Of a DNA stretch of 64,000 nucleotides, positions 1,132 to 8,679 are shown in pieces. The stretch is from Nitrospinaceae bacterium (lineage in GTDB: Bacteria > Nitrospinota > Nitrospinia > Nitrospinales > Nitrospinaceae). Within the stretch, counting starts at the first letter, position 1; each line of letters opens with the position of its first letter. The notes beneath the pieces were generated by a model. That model saw only the letters and a program-made list of their open reading frames with translations, was not told the DNA's origin and made no database searches. Position numbers and translations under genes: made by a program. The stretch lies in assembly GCA_024644405.1 (NCBI GenBank), contig JAHELC010000004.1, positions 1 to 64,000 on the forward strand, in the 5' to 3' direction.

Positions 1132-1149
1132 GAATGTCCGCTTTTGGCC
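1132..1149 (+). repeat. Direct repeat, right copy (flanks the acyltransferase gene)
   Basis: Exact second copy of the 18-base sequence at 103-120, in the same orientation. It lies 120 bases after the acyltransferase stop codon. The intergenic stretch 1012-1490 otherwise holds only the SRAP relic (1258-1398) and the interspersed repeat (1407-1441). Confidence 0.6.
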
Positions 1150-1257
1150 GAAAGCTGCCCTTTATGAGGAAAGTTTAATGAGGCGATTCGCCGTTCCTGC
1201 TATAATCCCTTCTTTTAAAATATTGAAAACGCAGTTCCAATTTTCCGGTATTCCAGA

Positions 1258-2030: not shown

Positions 2031-2093
2031 CAAGTTTGACAAGGGGGAACTATGGAACTACCTTTAAGGTATACGAACCAACAGGAGGGAGTG

Positions 2094-2354
2094 ATGATTA
2101 AAAAATATCCGGCTTGTTTCCTGATGTTATGGTTTTTGGTTGGGTGTTCCGCGGCTCCAACCCCAAAACCCAAACCCGTTGGAGTGACCGGGGCGGTGCA
2201 AGCGTCCGAGACCATCAAACATGGGAGCTGGTGTGAGGCCTGGAGTAAAGCGGGTGAGTATTGTCTCGCACACTGCGAAGATCCTGAACAGGCGGTTTGC
2301 GAGAATACCGAGATGCTCCGACCCTATTGCAAATGTTTGCCACAACAACCTTAA
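2094..2354 (+). CDS. Small cysteine-rich lipoprotein
   Basis: An 86-residue protein with a lipoprotein signal (ACFLMLWFLVGC) followed by a proline/lysine-rich linker (PTPKPKPVG). The C-terminal half has seven cysteines, including CLAHC and CKC, which suggests disulfides or metal binding in the periplasm. The start is placed at ATG 2094 because AGGAGGG lies just upstream; GTG 2091 is adjacent, and an in-frame ATG at 2052 would put the signal peptide too far inside. I do not recognise the family. It converges with the Slp-like gene 9 bases away. Confidence 0.65.
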   Translation: MIKKYPACFLMLWFLVGCSAAPTPKPKPVGVTGAVQASETIKHGSWCEAWSKAGEYCLAHCEDPEQAVCENTEMLRPYCKCLPQQP

Positions 2355-2921: not shown

Positions 2922-3127
2922 GGTTCCCCCGCTTCGATATCACCCGGTGCCCGTTCAGCAACGGCGCCGGGACCGTGGGATTCCTGTTGCCGGGATTTCG
3001 CGATTGGGGATTCACACCACGACATCCGGGATCCGTCGGCTTGGTCTATCCCTTATTTGTACCATATATATAAGGGAAGGTTCTACAATCGCCCGGGCCC
3101 CTCCTCTGGATGGAGGGCGAACACTTG

Positions 3128-3192
3128 CCAATACAGAAATCGATAAAAATCCGATCGAGGAGGTCGACGGCGAAGGTTTTGCCGGGGGTGCC
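3128..3192 (-). repeat. mnmE 3'-end-like repeat A (candidate attachment-site remnant)
   Basis: These 65 bases align without gaps to 7310-7374, the last codons of mnmE, with 56 identities by eye. Read on the minus strand they encode GKTFAVDLLDRIFIDFCIGK, against GKTFVDDLLDQIFVDFCIGK in MnmE. There is no stop after the final Lys. The copy begins 3 bases beyond the mtfA stop codon. The 3' end of mnmE is the integration site of SGI1-type islands, so this may be an att remnant. The rest of the 2922-3195 gap holds a palindrome around 3050-3076 and a GC-rich hairpin near 3096. Confidence 0.65.
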
Positions 3193-3195
3193 TTC

Positions 3196-3987
3196 TTAAT
3201 CTTGATGGGTCGATACTCTCTCTGCCGGATCCTGCCGGTAAAAACCCTGCATGACCTGATACAGTTCCGGGCGATAGCGTTTCATGTGTTCGGGTTTACT
3301 GAAAAAATATTCAGTCACCACCGCGAAAAACTCAGCTTCGTCCGTTGCCGCATAACTGTCAAAAAAAGTAGATTGACCGTGTTCCACTTTGTCGCATAGC
3401 TTCAGGTACGCTTTCGAACAGACATCAACCCATCGTTGATACTCTTCAGGAGTTGCCAGTGGCGGAGTGCCATCTGCACTGCCATCGAGCATGTCCAGTT
3501 TATGGGCAAATTCGTGATAGACCAGATTATGGCCTTGTTCCGGATGCCGGGTTTCTCTTTTCACTGCATCCCAGACCAGTATCACCGGGCCGCGATAATG
3601 GGCCTCGCCGAGTATTGGCATGGGGCCACCCACGGGTTCAGTGTGAGTCTGGAAAAAACCCGTGGGCCTCTCAGGAGACAGGACGGTTGAGGGATAAACA
3701 TAAATCGATTCCACATTGCGGTAATAATTGTTCGGCAACGCGAGTATCAACAAGCATGCATGGGCGGCGATGACGACGCGGATCTCATCGGTCAGTTCAA
3801 GGCCACCGCACCCCAGCCAATGCTTTTCGGCAACAAAGATTTGGATAAGATTTTGTAAGCGCTTTTTTTCTTCCTTATTGAGGTGCTGATAGTAGGGAAT
3901 ATTCTTTTGAATGTGCCTCTCCCACTCGCTTGGGAAAGGAACAGCCAATATTTTTTTCCGCCGCCTCTTACGAAACCAATTCCACAT
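3196..3987 (-). CDS. mtfA: MtfA-family zinc metallopeptidase (peptidase M90)
   Basis: A 263-residue cytosolic protein that aligns in outline with E. coli MtfA, a zinc peptidase that also binds and inactivates the glucose-PTS repressor Mlc. The zinc motif HEFAH is at 158-162, followed by KLDMLDG. A downstream acidic helix (DEAEFFAVVTEYFF, near 210-220) supplies the third ligand in this family. Length matches the family (about 265). There is no Mlc or PTS gene nearby, so only the peptidase role is supported. It lies downstream of the CocE-like hydrolase on the same strand, 79 bases away, within the segment bounded by repeats A and B. Confidence 0.9.
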   Translation of the reverse strand: MWNWFRKRRRKKILAVPFPSEWERHIQKNIPYYQHLNKEEKKRLQNLIQIFVAEKHWLGCGGLELTDEIRVVIAAHACLLILALPNNYYRNVESIYVYPSTVLSPERPTGFFQTHTEPVGGPMPILGEAHYRGPVILVWDAVKRETRHPEQGHNLVYHEFAHKLDMLDGSADGTPPLATPEEYQRWVDVCSKAYLKLCDKVEHGQSTFFDSYAATDEAEFFAVVTEYFFSKPEHMKRYRPELYQVMQGFYRQDPAERVSTHQD

Positions 3988-4066
3988 AAAACTTCACCTC
4001 TTTCAATCGATTTTGTCTCCTCAGAATAACATGCGGTGTTTGAATTTTCCCGCGGCGGTGCGCCGC

Positions 4067-5854
4067 TTATGGTTTGGGGATGACGGGCAGGATCAATCGT
4101 GACGGGTACCGGGTGTTGTGGAAGACCTTCTGGTAGGCCGGGATCGTATGGGTGGCGGTGGCGATGGTTTCTCCGGTATTGGGGTTGCGGTCGTAGCGGG
4201 GAAAGTTGCTGCTGGAAACTTCGAGCCGTATCCGGTGCCCCTGTTTGAAGACGTTGCTGGTCGGCCACAACTGGATCCGGATCTGCACCGGTTCGACTTC
4301 TCTGTCCACATTGGATTCCTGATAACCCCTCCGCAAAATCCCGTCGCACAGATTGTAAGCGGACCCGTCGGGATGCACATCGACCAGCTTGGCTGTGAAG
4401 TCCGTCGAGCGCGCACCGGTGGCCACATACAAAACCGCCTCGACGGGACCCGTCACCTCGACCGCGTCGGTGAGGGGCGGCGTGCTGTACACGAGGACGT
4501 CCGCCCGCGATTCAATTGCGTTTTGCAGTTTCGGTCCGGACCGGTAGCTGAGCATGGCGCCACCGGCAGAGGGTACGGGATTCAACGGGTCGTATAAATA
4601 CACGTCCGGCTGTTCGTTGCCCCCGGGGAGAACGGTGTCCAGCTGGCCGTCGCCGTTCACCGAGTTGGCACGGCCCTGGCTGTGCAGATAGAATGCCGTG
4701 TAACGCGTCCGGGCGAGGGGCCATTCGTTTTCGCTGCGCCACCGGTTGGCACCCATCACAAAAATATTGACGCGCGGCATGTTCAGGGGCGCATCCGTCA
4801 GGCCAAGATGGTGGTCGAACCAGGGGATACTGGGGGCGATGCTGGCGGCGCGATAGGGTGGGGGGTCTTTCAACCCCGGTATTTTGGCCGAGTCGGCGTG
4901 GCCCCAGGGGCCGATGATCAGTTTGCTGTGCGCGGCGACCTGCGGCTTGCCCTGGTGGGTGATGGCCAGGTAGTCCGCGATCTGCGTGGGCAGAAAGGGA
5001 TCGAACCAGCCCGCCATCAGCAGAGTGGGAGCCTCCAGATGTTGCGGGCGCCGGTCGCCATCGATCGTTCTCCAGTAGTCGTCCTTTTCTGGATGCGACA
5101 CCCAGTCGTTGAAAAAATCCGTGTCGCCGATGGCGTGGTCGTCCGCTTCAATAATGGGCAACCCGGCCACCCCTTTTTTTAAATCGTCCATGTCGACTTC
5201 GCGGTCTTCTTCGCCGCGACTGCGGATGGTCCAGTACAGCGCGCTTTCCAGGGAAAAGGCATTGCCGGGATAAAACATTTCGCGGAAACTGGTGCTGGCG
5301 ATCTGGATGAACAGGACGTCGGGCCCGGGATCGGTTTGGTCGGAGATCGCCCATTGGGTATGGCCGAAGGAGGAACCGCCCCACATCGCCAGGCGTTTGT
5401 CGTACCAGGGCTGTTTCGCCAGCCACTGCAGGGTTTCGATGCCATCCTCCCGTTCGTGGATCAATGGATAGAATTTTCCGGTGGACCCGTATCGGCCGCG
5501 CGTGCCCTGGATCACCACCGTGTACCCGCGGCTGGCCCAGTAGCGGGCAATCACATCGGAGCGGATGCGATTGCCCAGCGTGTCGGTAAAGGGGATGCGG
5601 ACCAGCAGGGTGGGGGTTTTTTCCAGGTCCTGGGGAGAATGAACGTCGGCGTTTAATTGGATGCCGTCGCTGGTGGTGAACACGACATGGCGTTGGGTCT
5701 TCACCGCATACGACGCTTCCCGGATTCCCTCGTTCGGAAGAAAAAACCGGTTGGCAAAAAAATCCAGGGAGCTGGCACAGCCCGTTGCCAACACGGCCCA
5801 ATAAAGAAATAAAACAAGGTATGGAGAGCGTCTGTTATTTTTTAAAGAAAACAT
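4067..5854 (-). CDS. CocE/NonD-family (peptidase S15-like) alpha/beta hydrolase lipoprotein
   Basis: A 595-residue hydrolase. From M1 (5854) there is a short basic N-terminus, a hydrophobic stretch and the lipobox-like LATGC near residue 26, so it is probably lipid-anchored outside the cytoplasm. The catalytic triad of the CocE family is visible: nucleophile Ser161 in GGSSFGHTQW, Asp285 in AGWFD, and His319 in GPWGH. The C-terminal jelly-roll (about 370-590) ends with the RIRLEVSSSNFPRYDRN segment typical of X-Pro dipeptidyl-peptidase and cocaine-esterase relatives. The substrate is unknown. An upstream in-frame extension to 5959 runs through repeat B and was rejected because it would bury the signal peptide. 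Confidence 0.9.
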   Translation of the reverse strand: MFSLKNNRRSPYLVLFLYWAVLATGCASSLDFFANRFFLPNEGIREASYAVKTQRHVVFTTSDGIQLNADVHSPQDLEKTPTLLVRIPFTDTLGNRIRSDVIARYWASRGYTVVIQGTRGRYGSTGKFYPLIHEREDGIETLQWLAKQPWYDKRLAMWGGSSFGHTQWAISDQTDPGPDVLFIQIASTSFREMFYPGNAFSLESALYWTIRSRGEEDREVDMDDLKKGVAGLPIIEADDHAIGDTDFFNDWVSHPEKDDYWRTIDGDRRPQHLEAPTLLMAGWFDPFLPTQIADYLAITHQGKPQVAAHSKLIIGPWGHADSAKIPGLKDPPPYRAASIAPSIPWFDHHLGLTDAPLNMPRVNIFVMGANRWRSENEWPLARTRYTAFYLHSQGRANSVNGDGQLDTVLPGGNEQPDVYLYDPLNPVPSAGGAMLSYRSGPKLQNAIESRADVLVYSTPPLTDAVEVTGPVEAVLYVATGARSTDFTAKLVDVHPDGSAYNLCDGILRRGYQESNVDREVEPVQIRIQLWPTSNVFKQGHRIRLEVSSSNFPRYDRNPNTGETIATATHTIPAYQKVFHNTRYPSRLILPVIPKP

Positions 5855-5911
5855 ACTGACATATATACCACTTTTAGAATTTGTTTTCCGGGGGTGGTGC
5901 GCTGCTGTTTG

Positions 5912-5952
5912 CCAATACAAAAATCGTAGAAGCTCTGGACGAGGAGGTCGCC
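5912..5952 (-). repeat. mnmE 3'-end-like repeat B (candidate attachment-site remnant)
   Basis: The first 39 bases match 7310-7348 at 34 positions by eye. On the minus strand the copy reads GDLLVQSFYDFCIGK, matching the MnmE C-terminus DLLDQIFVDFCIGK, again without a stop. It lies 29 bases beyond the nhaA stop codon and upstream of the CocE-like gene, so it separates the two. Copies A, B and C all have the same orientation and share CCAATACA and GAGGAGGTCG blocks. Confidence 0.65.
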
Positions 5953-5981
5953 AAGCCACAAGGGAACAGGGAAAGGCAAAC

Positions 5982-7178
5982 CTAGATTTTTTCCTTTGGC
6001 AGGCTGAGGCGGAGCAGGGCGTAAGCCATCAGGGCGGACAGGATCGAACCCACGAGTATACCCAGGCGATCTCCACGGAAGTAGTCACCACTGCCGTGCT
6101 CGAACGCCAGGCCGGCGATGAACAGGCTCATGGTGAAGCCGATTCCGCAGGCAAATGCTACTCCGAGCAGTTGCATCCATCGGACGTTGTTGGGAAGCGG
6201 AACGAGTCGCAGGCCGACGGCGAGGCCGACAAAAAGTAGAACGCCCAGCGGTTTCCCCACGAGCAATCCCGTTATCACACCCAGGGTCACCGGGTGCGCC
6301 AGGTTTTCGAGGGACATGCCGGCCAGTGACAGCCCGGCATTGGCAAATGCAAACACGGGGAGGATCACGAAAGCCACGGGGCCGTGCAGATTGTGCTCCA
6401 GTTCGCCCAGTAATGGTCTGCCCTGCTCGTCCCGCATCGGGATGCACAAAGCGATCAGAACGCCCGCCAGGGTGGCATGGACACCGGACTTCAGGACGGC
6501 GATCCAGAGCACCACTCCGAGCAGGATGTAACTCGAAGTGCGGGTGATACCAGTCAGGTTCATGGTGACGGCAATCGTCAGAGCCAGCGCGCCCATACCC
6601 AGCGCGCTGAGGGACAGGTCACCGGAATAGAACAGGGCAATGATGATAATGGCTGCCAGGTCATCAAAGATGGCCAATGTGAGTAGAAAGACCTTCAATG
6701 CGGTCGGCACACGCCTGCCGAAAACGCCGAGCAGGGCCAACGCGAAAGCGATATCGGTCGCTACTGGAATGGCCCAGCCATCCATGGCAATGGGATTACT
6801 CCAGTTCATCCAGACATAGATCGCTGCGGGCACCACCATCCCTCCGAGGGCGCCCATGCCGGGCAGGATGATTTGCGGCAACGAGGACAATTCGCCTTCC
6901 ATGAATTCGCGCTTGATCTCCAGCCCCACCAGGAAGAAGAACACGGCCATTAGGCCGTCGTTGATCCAGAGTAGAAGAGGTTTATTGATCGACCAGGCAT
7001 CCACTTGAACGGCAACGGTTGTTTTCATAAGAGCGTTGTAAATCCCTGCCAATGGAGAATTGGCAACCAGCATGGCGATCAGGCCAGCGGCCAACAAAAG
7101 AAGGCCGCTGGCCGACTCCAGTTTCATGAAGTTGCGGAAGGCATCTGGAATAAGTGAGGAATTGTTTTTTTCAGACAT
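5982..7178 (-). CDS. nhaA: NhaA Na+/H+ antiporter
   Basis: A 398-residue inner-membrane protein with about 12 membrane helices. It exchanges two protons for one sodium ion, controlling cytoplasmic pH and sodium. The key aspartates are present: D142 in PVATDIAFALALLG and the ion-binding pair D172-D173 in AIFDDLAAIIIIALFYSG (E. coli D133, D163, D164). The VGLEIKREFMEGEL segment is also characteristic. Length is close to E. coli NhaA (388). It sits between mnmE and repeat B, on the same strand as mnmE, so it may be cargo of an insertion at the mnmE 3' end. No nhaR regulator is adjacent. Confidence 0.95.
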   Translation of the reverse strand: MSEKNNSSLIPDAFRNFMKLESASGLLLLAAGLIAMLVANSPLAGIYNALMKTTVAVQVDAWSINKPLLLWINDGLMAVFFFLVGLEIKREFMEGELSSLPQIILPGMGALGGMVVPAAIYVWMNWSNPIAMDGWAIPVATDIAFALALLGVFGRRVPTALKVFLLTLAIFDDLAAIIIIALFYSGDLSLSALGMGALALTIAVTMNLTGITRTSSYILLGVVLWIAVLKSGVHATLAGVLIALCIPMRDEQGRPLLGELEHNLHGPVAFVILPVFAFANAGLSLAGMSLENLAHPVTLGVITGLLVGKPLGVLLFVGLAVGLRLVPLPNNVRWMQLLGVAFACGIGFTMSLFIAGLAFEHGSGDYFRGDRLGILVGSILSALMAYALLRLSLPKEKI

Positions 7179-7247
7179 AAGGCCCTAGTGTACCGTTAAC
7201 GGGGAGATTGGCAAGATGATATCCGTTGAATGTCCGCGGTAAAGCCG

Positions 7248-7279
7248 GTCGCCCTTTCCTTCGACAAGTTCAGGACAGG
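7248..7279. repeat. Interspersed CTTCGACA-type repeat near mnmE
   Basis: GTCGCCCTTTCCTTCGACA is shared exactly with 1407-1425. This copy lies between nhaA and the mnmE stop codon. The pairing of this repeat with both the mnmE end and the SRAP relic fits a region of repeated insertion. Confidence 0.5.
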
Positions 7280-7302
7280 TTATCGGCCCAGGGTGACAAC
7301 CG

Positions 7303-8679
7303 CTATTTTCCAATACAAAAATCGACAAAGATCTGGTCGAGGAGGTCGTCGACGAAGGTTTTGCCGAGGATGCCGCCCAGATGTTCGAGGGCGATGTTGA
7401 GGTCGACGGCGATGAGGTCTTCGGACCGGTCCTCCTGCAGGGAATGCGAAACGCGCCCCAACGCTTCCTGCGCCTGTGCCAGTGCCTGGCGGTGCCGCTC
7501 GCGCGTGATGACCAGCGACTCTCCGGAAGTTTTACCCTCGAGCGCGGACTGGTAGAGCGAGTCTCTTAAAGCTTCCAACCCTTCACCCTGAGTCGCCGAC
7601 AGCGACAAGGCCTCGGCAGCTTTCACTTGCTTCAAAAGAGTGTTGGGATCGATCACCGTCGGCTGGTCGCTTTTGTTGAGAAGAACCAGTTTCTTTTTGT
7701 CCGCTACTTCCTTGATGAGCATGGCGTCGTTGGTGTCGAGTGCGTGCGATCCGTCGAAGATCACCAAAGCCAAGTCGGATTGCGCCAGCGCGTGACGCGT
7801 GCGCTCGATGCCGTGTTCTTCGATCTCATCCGGCTGGTGGCGGAGTCCGGCGGTATCGACAATCGTGATGTGGATGTCTTGGATGCGCACCCGTTCCTCC
7901 AAAGTATCGCGCGTGGTGCCGGGGTGGGGGGTGACGATGGCGCGGTCTTCCTGCAACAGTGCGTTGAGCAGGGACGACTTGCCGACATTCGGTTTGCCGA
8001 CCAGCGCCACCCGCAATCCTTCGCGGTAAATCCTGCCCTGGCGGTAGGAGTCGACCAGTTTTTTGATTTCGATGTTTGTGCTTTGAATATTTTGATCGAG
8101 TTTTTGCTTTTGCTGGAATTCGAGTCCTTCTTCCGGGAAGTCGATCGCCGCTTCCAGTTGCGCGAGCACCTGCACCAGCGCATCGTACAGCGCGTTGAGT
8201 TTTTTTGAGAGTTCGCCCTTGAGGTGCGCGAGCGCGGAGGTGAGGGCTTTGTCCGACGCGGCGTGGATGACGTCGGCCACCGCCTCCGCCTGCGACAAGT
8301 CGAGCCGGCCATTGGTGAACGCCCGCCGTGTAAACTCGCCGGCTTCGGCCAAACGCGCGCCCTGGTCGAGCACCAGTTTTAGAATTTTCGACGAGACATA
8401 GGCGCCGCCGTGACCGTGGATTTCGACCACGTCCTCGCCGGTGTAGCTGTACGGCGCTCGGAAGCGGATCAGCAGAACCTCGTCGACTGCCTGACCGCTG
8501 GCCGGATCGATCAGATTGCCGTAACACACCTTTTGCACTTCGAGGTCGGCCACCCGGGTTCCGCCCTGTGATTGGAACAGGGTCGAAGCGATGGGGACGG
8601 CTTCAGGTCCGCTGATGCGGATGATGTGGATGCCACCTTCACCGACGGGTGTGGCGATGGCGGCTACTGTATCGTTCAT
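7303..8679 (-). CDS. mnmE: tRNA uridine-5-carboxymethylaminomethyl(34) synthesis GTPase MnmE
   Basis: A 458-residue protein, the usual length. With MnmG it modifies U34 of tRNAs reading two-fold codon boxes. The N-terminal tetrahydrofolate-binding domain comes first (VAAIATPVGEGGIHIIRISG, EIHGHGG). The embedded G domain shows GKPNVGKSSLLNALL, DTAG and NKSD. The C-terminus FCIGK carries the conserved Cys455. The ATG is preceded by GGAGGT. It is the last gene of the rpmH-rnpA-yidD-yidC-mnmE operon; a jag gene often found between yidC and mnmE is absent. Its 3' end (7310-7374) is the parent of repeats A and B. Confidence 0.97.
   Translation of the reverse strand: MNDTVAAIATPVGEGGIHIIRISGPEAVPIASTLFQSQGGTRVADLEVQKVCYGNLIDPASGQAVDEVLLIRFRAPYSYTGEDVVEIHGHGGAYVSSKILKLVLDQGARLAEAGEFTRRAFTNGRLDLSQAEAVADVIHAASDKALTSALAHLKGELSKKLNALYDALVQVLAQLEAAIDFPEEGLEFQQKQKLDQNIQSTNIEIKKLVDSYRQGRIYREGLRVALVGKPNVGKSSLLNALLQEDRAIVTPHPGTTRDTLEERVRIQDIHITIVDTAGLRHQPDEIEEHGIERTRHALAQSDLALVIFDGSHALDTNDAMLIKEVADKKKLVLLNKSDQPTVIDPNTLLKQVKAAEALSLSATQGEGLEALRDSLYQSALEGKTSGESLVITRERHRQALAQAQEALGRVSHSLQEDRSEDLIAVDLNIALEHLGGILGKTFVDDLLDQIFVDFCIGK
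7310..7374 (-). repeat. mnmE 3' end, copy C (intact gene end)
   Basis: This is the genuine mnmE 3' coding end, listed because it matches 3128-3192 and 5912-5952. The terminal block GATTTTTGTATTGGAAAATA corresponds in position to the attB of SGI1-family islands at the end of mnmE (trmE/thdF); that site is established knowledge for Salmonella and relatives, and its use here is inference. Confidence 0.6.

Follow-up and report, generated by a model that had tools for sequence, protein, structure and literature searches.

Displaced mnmE tails

The window, by which we mean the whole stretch of 64,000 nucleotides that was analysed, forms the beginning of contig C27 in a 2.98-Mb Nitrospinaceae genome in 40 contigs (G000). 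On the minus strand, its genes are ordered rnpA, yidD, yidC, mnmE, nhaA, cocE, mtfA and slp, with a small open reading frame (ORF) and a cytochrome c gene beyond. The anchor is mnmE (7303–8679, minus strand), an intact core gene recognized by the Pfam and NCBIfam MnmE models, the last 72 nucleotides of which (7303–7374) are the source of a repeat. A first displaced copy of this tail occurs at 5905–5950 (minus strand; mnmE nucleotides 1332–1377, 46 bp, 7 mismatches, 85% identity) and a second at 3125–3192 (minus strand; mnmE nucleotides 1306–1373, 68 bp, 10 mismatches, 85%). Between mnmE and the first tail lies an acquired nhaA gene (5982–7178, minus strand; NCBIfam NhaA). The two tails enclose an acquired gene for a CocE/NonD-family hydrolase (cocE; 4067–5854, minus strand; TIGR00976) and mtfA, which encodes an M90 peptidase (3196–3987, minus strand; PF06167) and occurs at other loci in relatives.

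Repeat comparison and shuffles confirm the original prediction that the mnmE 3′ end has been copied twice on the same strand, each time behind the stop codon of a same-strand gene: one copy sits 3 nucleotides after the mtfA stop (which ends at 3196) and the other 31 nucleotides from the nhaA stop (which ends at 5982). The predicted locations held, but not the exact lengths, as both copies extend a few bases further. With up to three mismatches, GATTTTTGTATTGGCAAA occurs exactly three times in the window, against 0.09 times expected from shuffles. In the whole genome the copies have E-values of 8e-16 (3125–3192) and 6e-8 (5905–5950), and the next match (0.03) is unrelated. A genome-wide search for the block outside mnmE, as the prediction had proposed, returned these two displaced copies, both behind the intact gene, and nothing elsewhere; presence at three places in the genome rules out a dispersed repeat as the identity of the copies. 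We also discarded a hidden full-length 72-bp site at 5905–5976, the left 29 nucleotides of which, compared by eye, agree at 7 positions, the chance level.

Neither copy retains the stop codon (TGT and CAG occur instead). Relative to mnmE, the copy at 3125 has five synonymous and eight non-synonymous differences over 72 nucleotides, and the copy at 5905 has two and four, respectively, over 42 nucleotides. Both had been predicted to read the MnmE carboxy terminus still; they are coding remnants, but decayed ones. Because the stops are lost and many changes are non-synonymous, the copies are, as judged from their sequences, decaying remnants of a gene end and not conserved sites. The further suggestion that they represent an mnmE 3′ end acquired from another host agrees with some comparisons and is not proven. 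The sequences are too short for a foreign origin to be demonstrated: the copy at 3125 has an identity of 0.83 to mnmE of the congeners G001 and G002, only slightly above the 0.82 to mnmE of its own genome. Sliding identities along mnmE reveal no imported tract.

Gene content behind mnmE in relatives

We searched for mnmE in 61 genomes and compared 20 loci with flanks of up to 14 kb. G001, G002, G003 and G007 are congeners and G008 belongs to another genus of the same family; the genus is represented by one genome per species, mostly fragmented, and all comparisons are between species. Six genomes of the family (G004, G005, G006, G009, G010 and G011), one of them 94% complete, have no full-length mnmE match, which may reflect assembly breaks or loss.

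What lies downstream of mnmE differs in each congener. In G003, mnmE is followed by the cytochrome c gene and then by a tail (76 bp, 95% identity); in G002, 5.4 kb of other genes separate it from a tail (35 bp, 89%); in G001, the cytochrome gene stands directly behind mnmE and a decayed piece of the mnmE interior (nucleotides 1160–1266) lies 1.7 kb downstream; and in G007 the locus ends at the contig end. In 15 loci from other genera, no displaced mnmE tail was seen. This variety rules out a conserved mnmE–nhaA–cocE–mtfA synteny, the arrangement that had been named as telling against insertion, and the prediction that the nhaA and cocE–mtfA segments are stacked insertions is supported. A match to cocE is absent from 25 relatives; nhaA has no close homologue in 40 relatives, in which homologues at 40–58% occur at other sites; mtfA, present in about half of 41 genomes, occupies unrelated positions across the order; and the congeners carry other genes behind mnmE. 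In G003, one mtfA gene lies between direct repeats of about 60 bp that correspond to the 5′ region of a small ORF resembling a zinc ribbon (C28, approximately 5910–6940).

Beyond the second tail, the slp lipoprotein gene, the small ORF (2052–2354, plus strand) and the cytochrome c gene (1491–2921 for the region) are probably resident flank, because the cytochrome gene is found at or near mnmE in four congeners (next to it in G001 and G003; close by in G002). Closer to the contig start, identical AATGTCCGCTTTTGGCCG repeats at 104–121 and 1133–1150 (plus strand) bracket a FeeM-like gene (325–1011) with a GC content of 43%, compared with 54% for the window; AATGTCCGCTTTTGGCCG belongs to the dispersed intergenic repeats of this genome and possibly marks another inserted gene.

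The right edge of the mnmE homology falls at the stop codon, within 4 nucleotides, in the copies of G000, G002 and G003. Homology would be expected to stop there if donor and recipient carried different intergenic DNA behind the gene. The left edge differs between copies; the mtfA-side tail and the G003 tail behind the cytochrome gene have nearly coincident starting points in mnmE, a possible hint of a fixed site. The mnmE junctions have GGGCGG/GCGG in common with the post-stop sequence of relatives, a resemblance that is only suggestive.

These comparisons bear on the main rival to the addition of foreign DNA, namely that mnmE and its neighbours were duplicated in tandem and most of the extra mnmE was then deleted, leaving the 3′ tail. 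Such a history would fit the G001 locus, which retains an interior piece of mnmE and not its end, and the G003 copy, in which mnmE states private to that species recur; on C34 of G001, moreover, a gene tail and an SGNH gene have genuinely been duplicated in tandem (the MBOAT–SGNH case). However, the cargo at mnmE is unduplicated and differs between copies, and neither cocE nor nhaA is native to the genus. With two further observations from other loci (below), we consider tandem duplication followed by deletion unlikely, although it retains some probability as an origin of the kind (plain tandem duplication of an mnmE pseudogene) that had been named as refuting the prediction.

Tail copies behind other genes

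Stretches of 860 kb from G000 (about 29% of that genome), 452 kb from G001, 355 kb from G002 and 400 kb from G008 were scanned for tail copies. Among 1,938 ORFs, 12 genes have a stop-anchored tail copy within 8 kb; ten of the copies lie downstream on the same strand, one is downstream and inverted and one is upstream (p = 4e-5 under equal chance). This statistic measures a bias and not a rate, because at least two of the ten downstream cases are other phenomena (a tRNA region and the MBOAT–SGNH duplication) and because mnmE and the radical-SAM gene are each counted in two species. Copies anchored at 5′ ends show a weaker bias (7 upstream versus 4 downstream). A 568-amino-acid gene on G000 C16 and several matches on C32 were rejected as tails, being REP-like or tRNA repeats.

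In the 860 kb of G000, the last 40 nucleotides of a radical-SAM gene recur 2.9 kb downstream, two bases past the stop of an EthD gene. One such tail is present in G000, two in G001, three clear ones in G002 and one in G003. The order is radical-SAM–SelO–…–EthD–tail in G000, radical-SAM–EthD–decayed tail–tail–SelO–DedA in G001 and tail–MaoC–tail–DedA–SelO–…–tail in G002, in which the intact radical-SAM gene is absent; the G003 locus has the tail alone. EthD and SelO are swapped in order, with SelO behind the intact gene in G000 and behind a tail in G001. Anchor-gene fragments of variable length, together with displaced foreign genes, are found both at mnmE (G000, G002 and G003) and at the radical-SAM loci. 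The G000 radical-SAM tail copy is 87% identical to G001 and 90% to G002, versus 80% to the gene of its own genome, and this greater closeness to other species argues against tandem duplication. Sequence behind two of the G002 tails and the G003 tail resembles that behind the intact G000 gene, and part of it is a dispersed repeat. The array (G000 C16, 380–400 kb, and counterparts) adjoins groESL/queF, and its order is permuted in four species. The repeat AATGTCCGC was considered as a cassette site and rejected: it is a dispersed intergenic repeat that does not occur at the mnmE tails and follows some radical-SAM tails. The 860 kb of G000 contain 22 copies of it, versus about 7 expected, and many lie within ORFs.

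Tail copies also occur behind a 129-amino-acid gene in G002 (126 bp, 98%) and a 122-amino-acid gene in G008 (80 bp, 82%). The G002 locus (C5, 164926–167566) reads gene A (the 129-amino-acid gene), blc, a reversed methyltransferase tail, the A tail, a 161-amino-acid gene and the methyltransferase gene; in the G001 counterpart, the 129-amino-acid gene is followed by blc, with the methyltransferase gene 2.4 kb further on. In G002, the methyltransferase tail is joined to the 129-amino-acid-gene tail at AAAACCG, a 7-bp microhomology that is present in both parents and is the one clear case at a non-homologous junction. The arrangement would result if a fragment ordered A–blc–M (M being the methyltransferase gene) entered a chromosome ordered A–X–M by one crossover in A and one illegitimate join, or if such a fragment were circularized and integrated by a single crossover. 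Tandem duplication does not readily account for it, because neighbour ends can meet at a microhomology only through DNA in which the genes are ordered differently. With 98% similarity of the displaced tail to the gene of its own genome and only 74% for the methyltransferase piece, a single donor is not a good explanation.

A further candidate is insertion with long target duplication, in which the end of a gene would be cut by staggered breaks and duplicated by repair synthesis. The same end product is known, as far as PMC1643837 relates it, from a pairwise strain comparison of Helicobacter pylori restriction–modification genes (Nobusato et al. 2000), in which inserted genes likewise lie between direct repeats of the target; local direct repeats also outnumber inverted ones in our scan (33 to 4 in G000 and 13 to 0 in G001, counts that include paralogues). 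In contrast to the cases related there, the repeats described here end at the stop codon and stack. Long target duplication leaves that end point unexplained, as well as the radical-SAM tails that differ within one genome like alleles of different species and, in G002, the joining of the ends of both neighbouring genes, and we regard it as very unlikely.

Site-specific recombination

The original prediction invoked an SGI1-type attachment site at the mnmE 3′ end, a proposal with which the variable left edge of the homology, the lack of a nearby integrase and the similar scars at unrelated genes do not agree. The mnmE flank contains no integrase, as had been noted, and no recombinase was seen at the scar loci. 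The suggested search for an SGI1 Int-type tyrosine recombinase elsewhere in the G000 genome yielded XerD-like and XerC-like proteins and a single remnant-like P4-type protein, in which HxxR and the tyrosine are not readable; by reading, this genome has no intact non-Xer tyrosine recombinase. Similar-sized matches to the P4-type integrase-like protein (L206:4345–5493, minus strand) are present in five congeners, and it is apparently conserved across the genus. In G001, three tyrosine recombinase genes that stand side by side on a 5-kb contig (C21) resemble a recombinase-in-trio element.

We found no fixed short attachment core with constant boundaries among the mnmE copies, which measure 68, 46, 35 and 76 bp across the congeners, and no single target gene, given the scars at the radical-SAM, 129-amino-acid and 122-amino-acid genes; the 18-bp SGI1 core matches at 13–17 of 18 positions. 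The other form of the prediction, a cassette array driven by a recombinase, is not supported, given scars at unrelated genes and copy lengths that range from 29 to 128 bp; a motif common to the tails of different genes was not found beyond chance. An integron cassette array is not supported either: integron-integrase matches fall far below the cut-off and belong to XerC/XerD, and the repeats are coding tails.

Site-specific insertion could still have operated in another form, in which integrase-less elements resembling CIMEs were stacked by accretion at an mnmE attachment site and were formerly moved by a recombinase acting in trans. This form keeps some weight because trmE islands, which encode int and xis, integrate in tandem (islands are known at mnmE/trmE 3′ ends, where integrating in tandem is not rare; PMC7449626) and because integrase-less array members exist elsewhere, as CIMEs in tandem arrays (PMC7563491) and as 15 Dehalococcoides islands without an integration module (PMC3146451). 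The near-identical start of two of the tails is in its favour, and viral contigs with an integrase just behind an mnmE tail exist. In IMG/VR, a strict pattern retrieved no phage with an mnmE tail closely like that of this genus, and a looser pattern retrieved 12 contigs, of which several carry long stretches of mnmE derived from unrelated hosts. SGI1-family and Dehalococcoides ssrA islands resemble the arrays described here in their tandem insertions behind a conserved 3′ end, with end repeats, but they have site-specific recombinases and a short fixed core, which we did not find, and here other genes are involved too. Against accretion of such elements stand the absence of a common core among scars at unrelated genes, the variable lengths and decay of the copies, and the lack of an integrase at the loci or, by reading, an intact non-Xer tyrosine recombinase in the genome, and we judge it distinctly unlikely.

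Proposed addition of genes behind core genes

On balance, although narrowly, we think it probable that the arrays arose by repeated homology-facilitated illegitimate recombination, or by insertion of circularized homologous fragments, at the 3′ ends of core genes. DNA from a relative, comprising the 3′ part of mnmE and other genes, would recombine by a homologous crossover within mnmE, and the other end of the fragment would join the chromosome illegitimately, at a microhomology located within the old mnmE tail or immediately ahead of it. The added genes would land directly behind mnmE, and the old tail and everything behind it would shift downstream, where the tail would decay. Two such events would give mnmE, nhaA, a tail, cocE and mtfA, a second tail and the resident genes; the copies would then be old mnmE ends, with nhaA the latest addition and cocE–mtfA an earlier one. 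By an alternative route, a circularized fragment could reach the same product through one crossover in the tail. The direction and order of events, the donors and the route of DNA uptake are what we infer here; the genome contains ComEC, a common gene that offers weak support for DNA uptake. Competent bacteria provide documented cases of homology-facilitated illegitimate recombination; in Escherichia coli it is rare, and linear DNA may also circularize there and integrate by one crossover (PMC3240628).

Comparable displacement is known at other loci. At rhs loci, core fragments of variable length precede displaced tips, in strings that follow the intact gene on its downstream side (Jackson et al. 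2009, PMC2935791), and circular intermediates with homologous recombination have been proposed (PMC2935791). The arrays described here share such core-gene fragments before displaced sequences behind an intact gene. Whereas rhs displaces an alternative carboxy terminus, the mnmE or radical-SAM anchor keeps its own and whole genes are displaced. For type VI secretion immunity arrays of Vibrio cholerae, homology-facilitated illegitimate recombination has been proposed, with the 3′ end of the effector gene shifted back (PMC5361080). There, as here, modules are added behind a conserved anchor and older genes are pushed back together with the anchor's 3′ end; unlike those arrays, ours involve housekeeping loci in another phylum, with no competition module or immunity selection. 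Transposed plant genes with flanking repeats, for which circles have been proposed, form a related pattern (PMC2869330).

Displacement arrays have been described for toxin and competition loci, and the present ones concern housekeeping genes in an uncultured phylum. We tentatively raise the possibility that, throughout the genus, accessory genes accumulate behind core genes by additive recombination, forming integron-like arrays without an integrase. The finding points to homology-anchored, integrase-free addition as a possible general route by which genes enter genomes. The fossil tails would then act as oriented scars, recording which genes were added, in what order and from which relatives.
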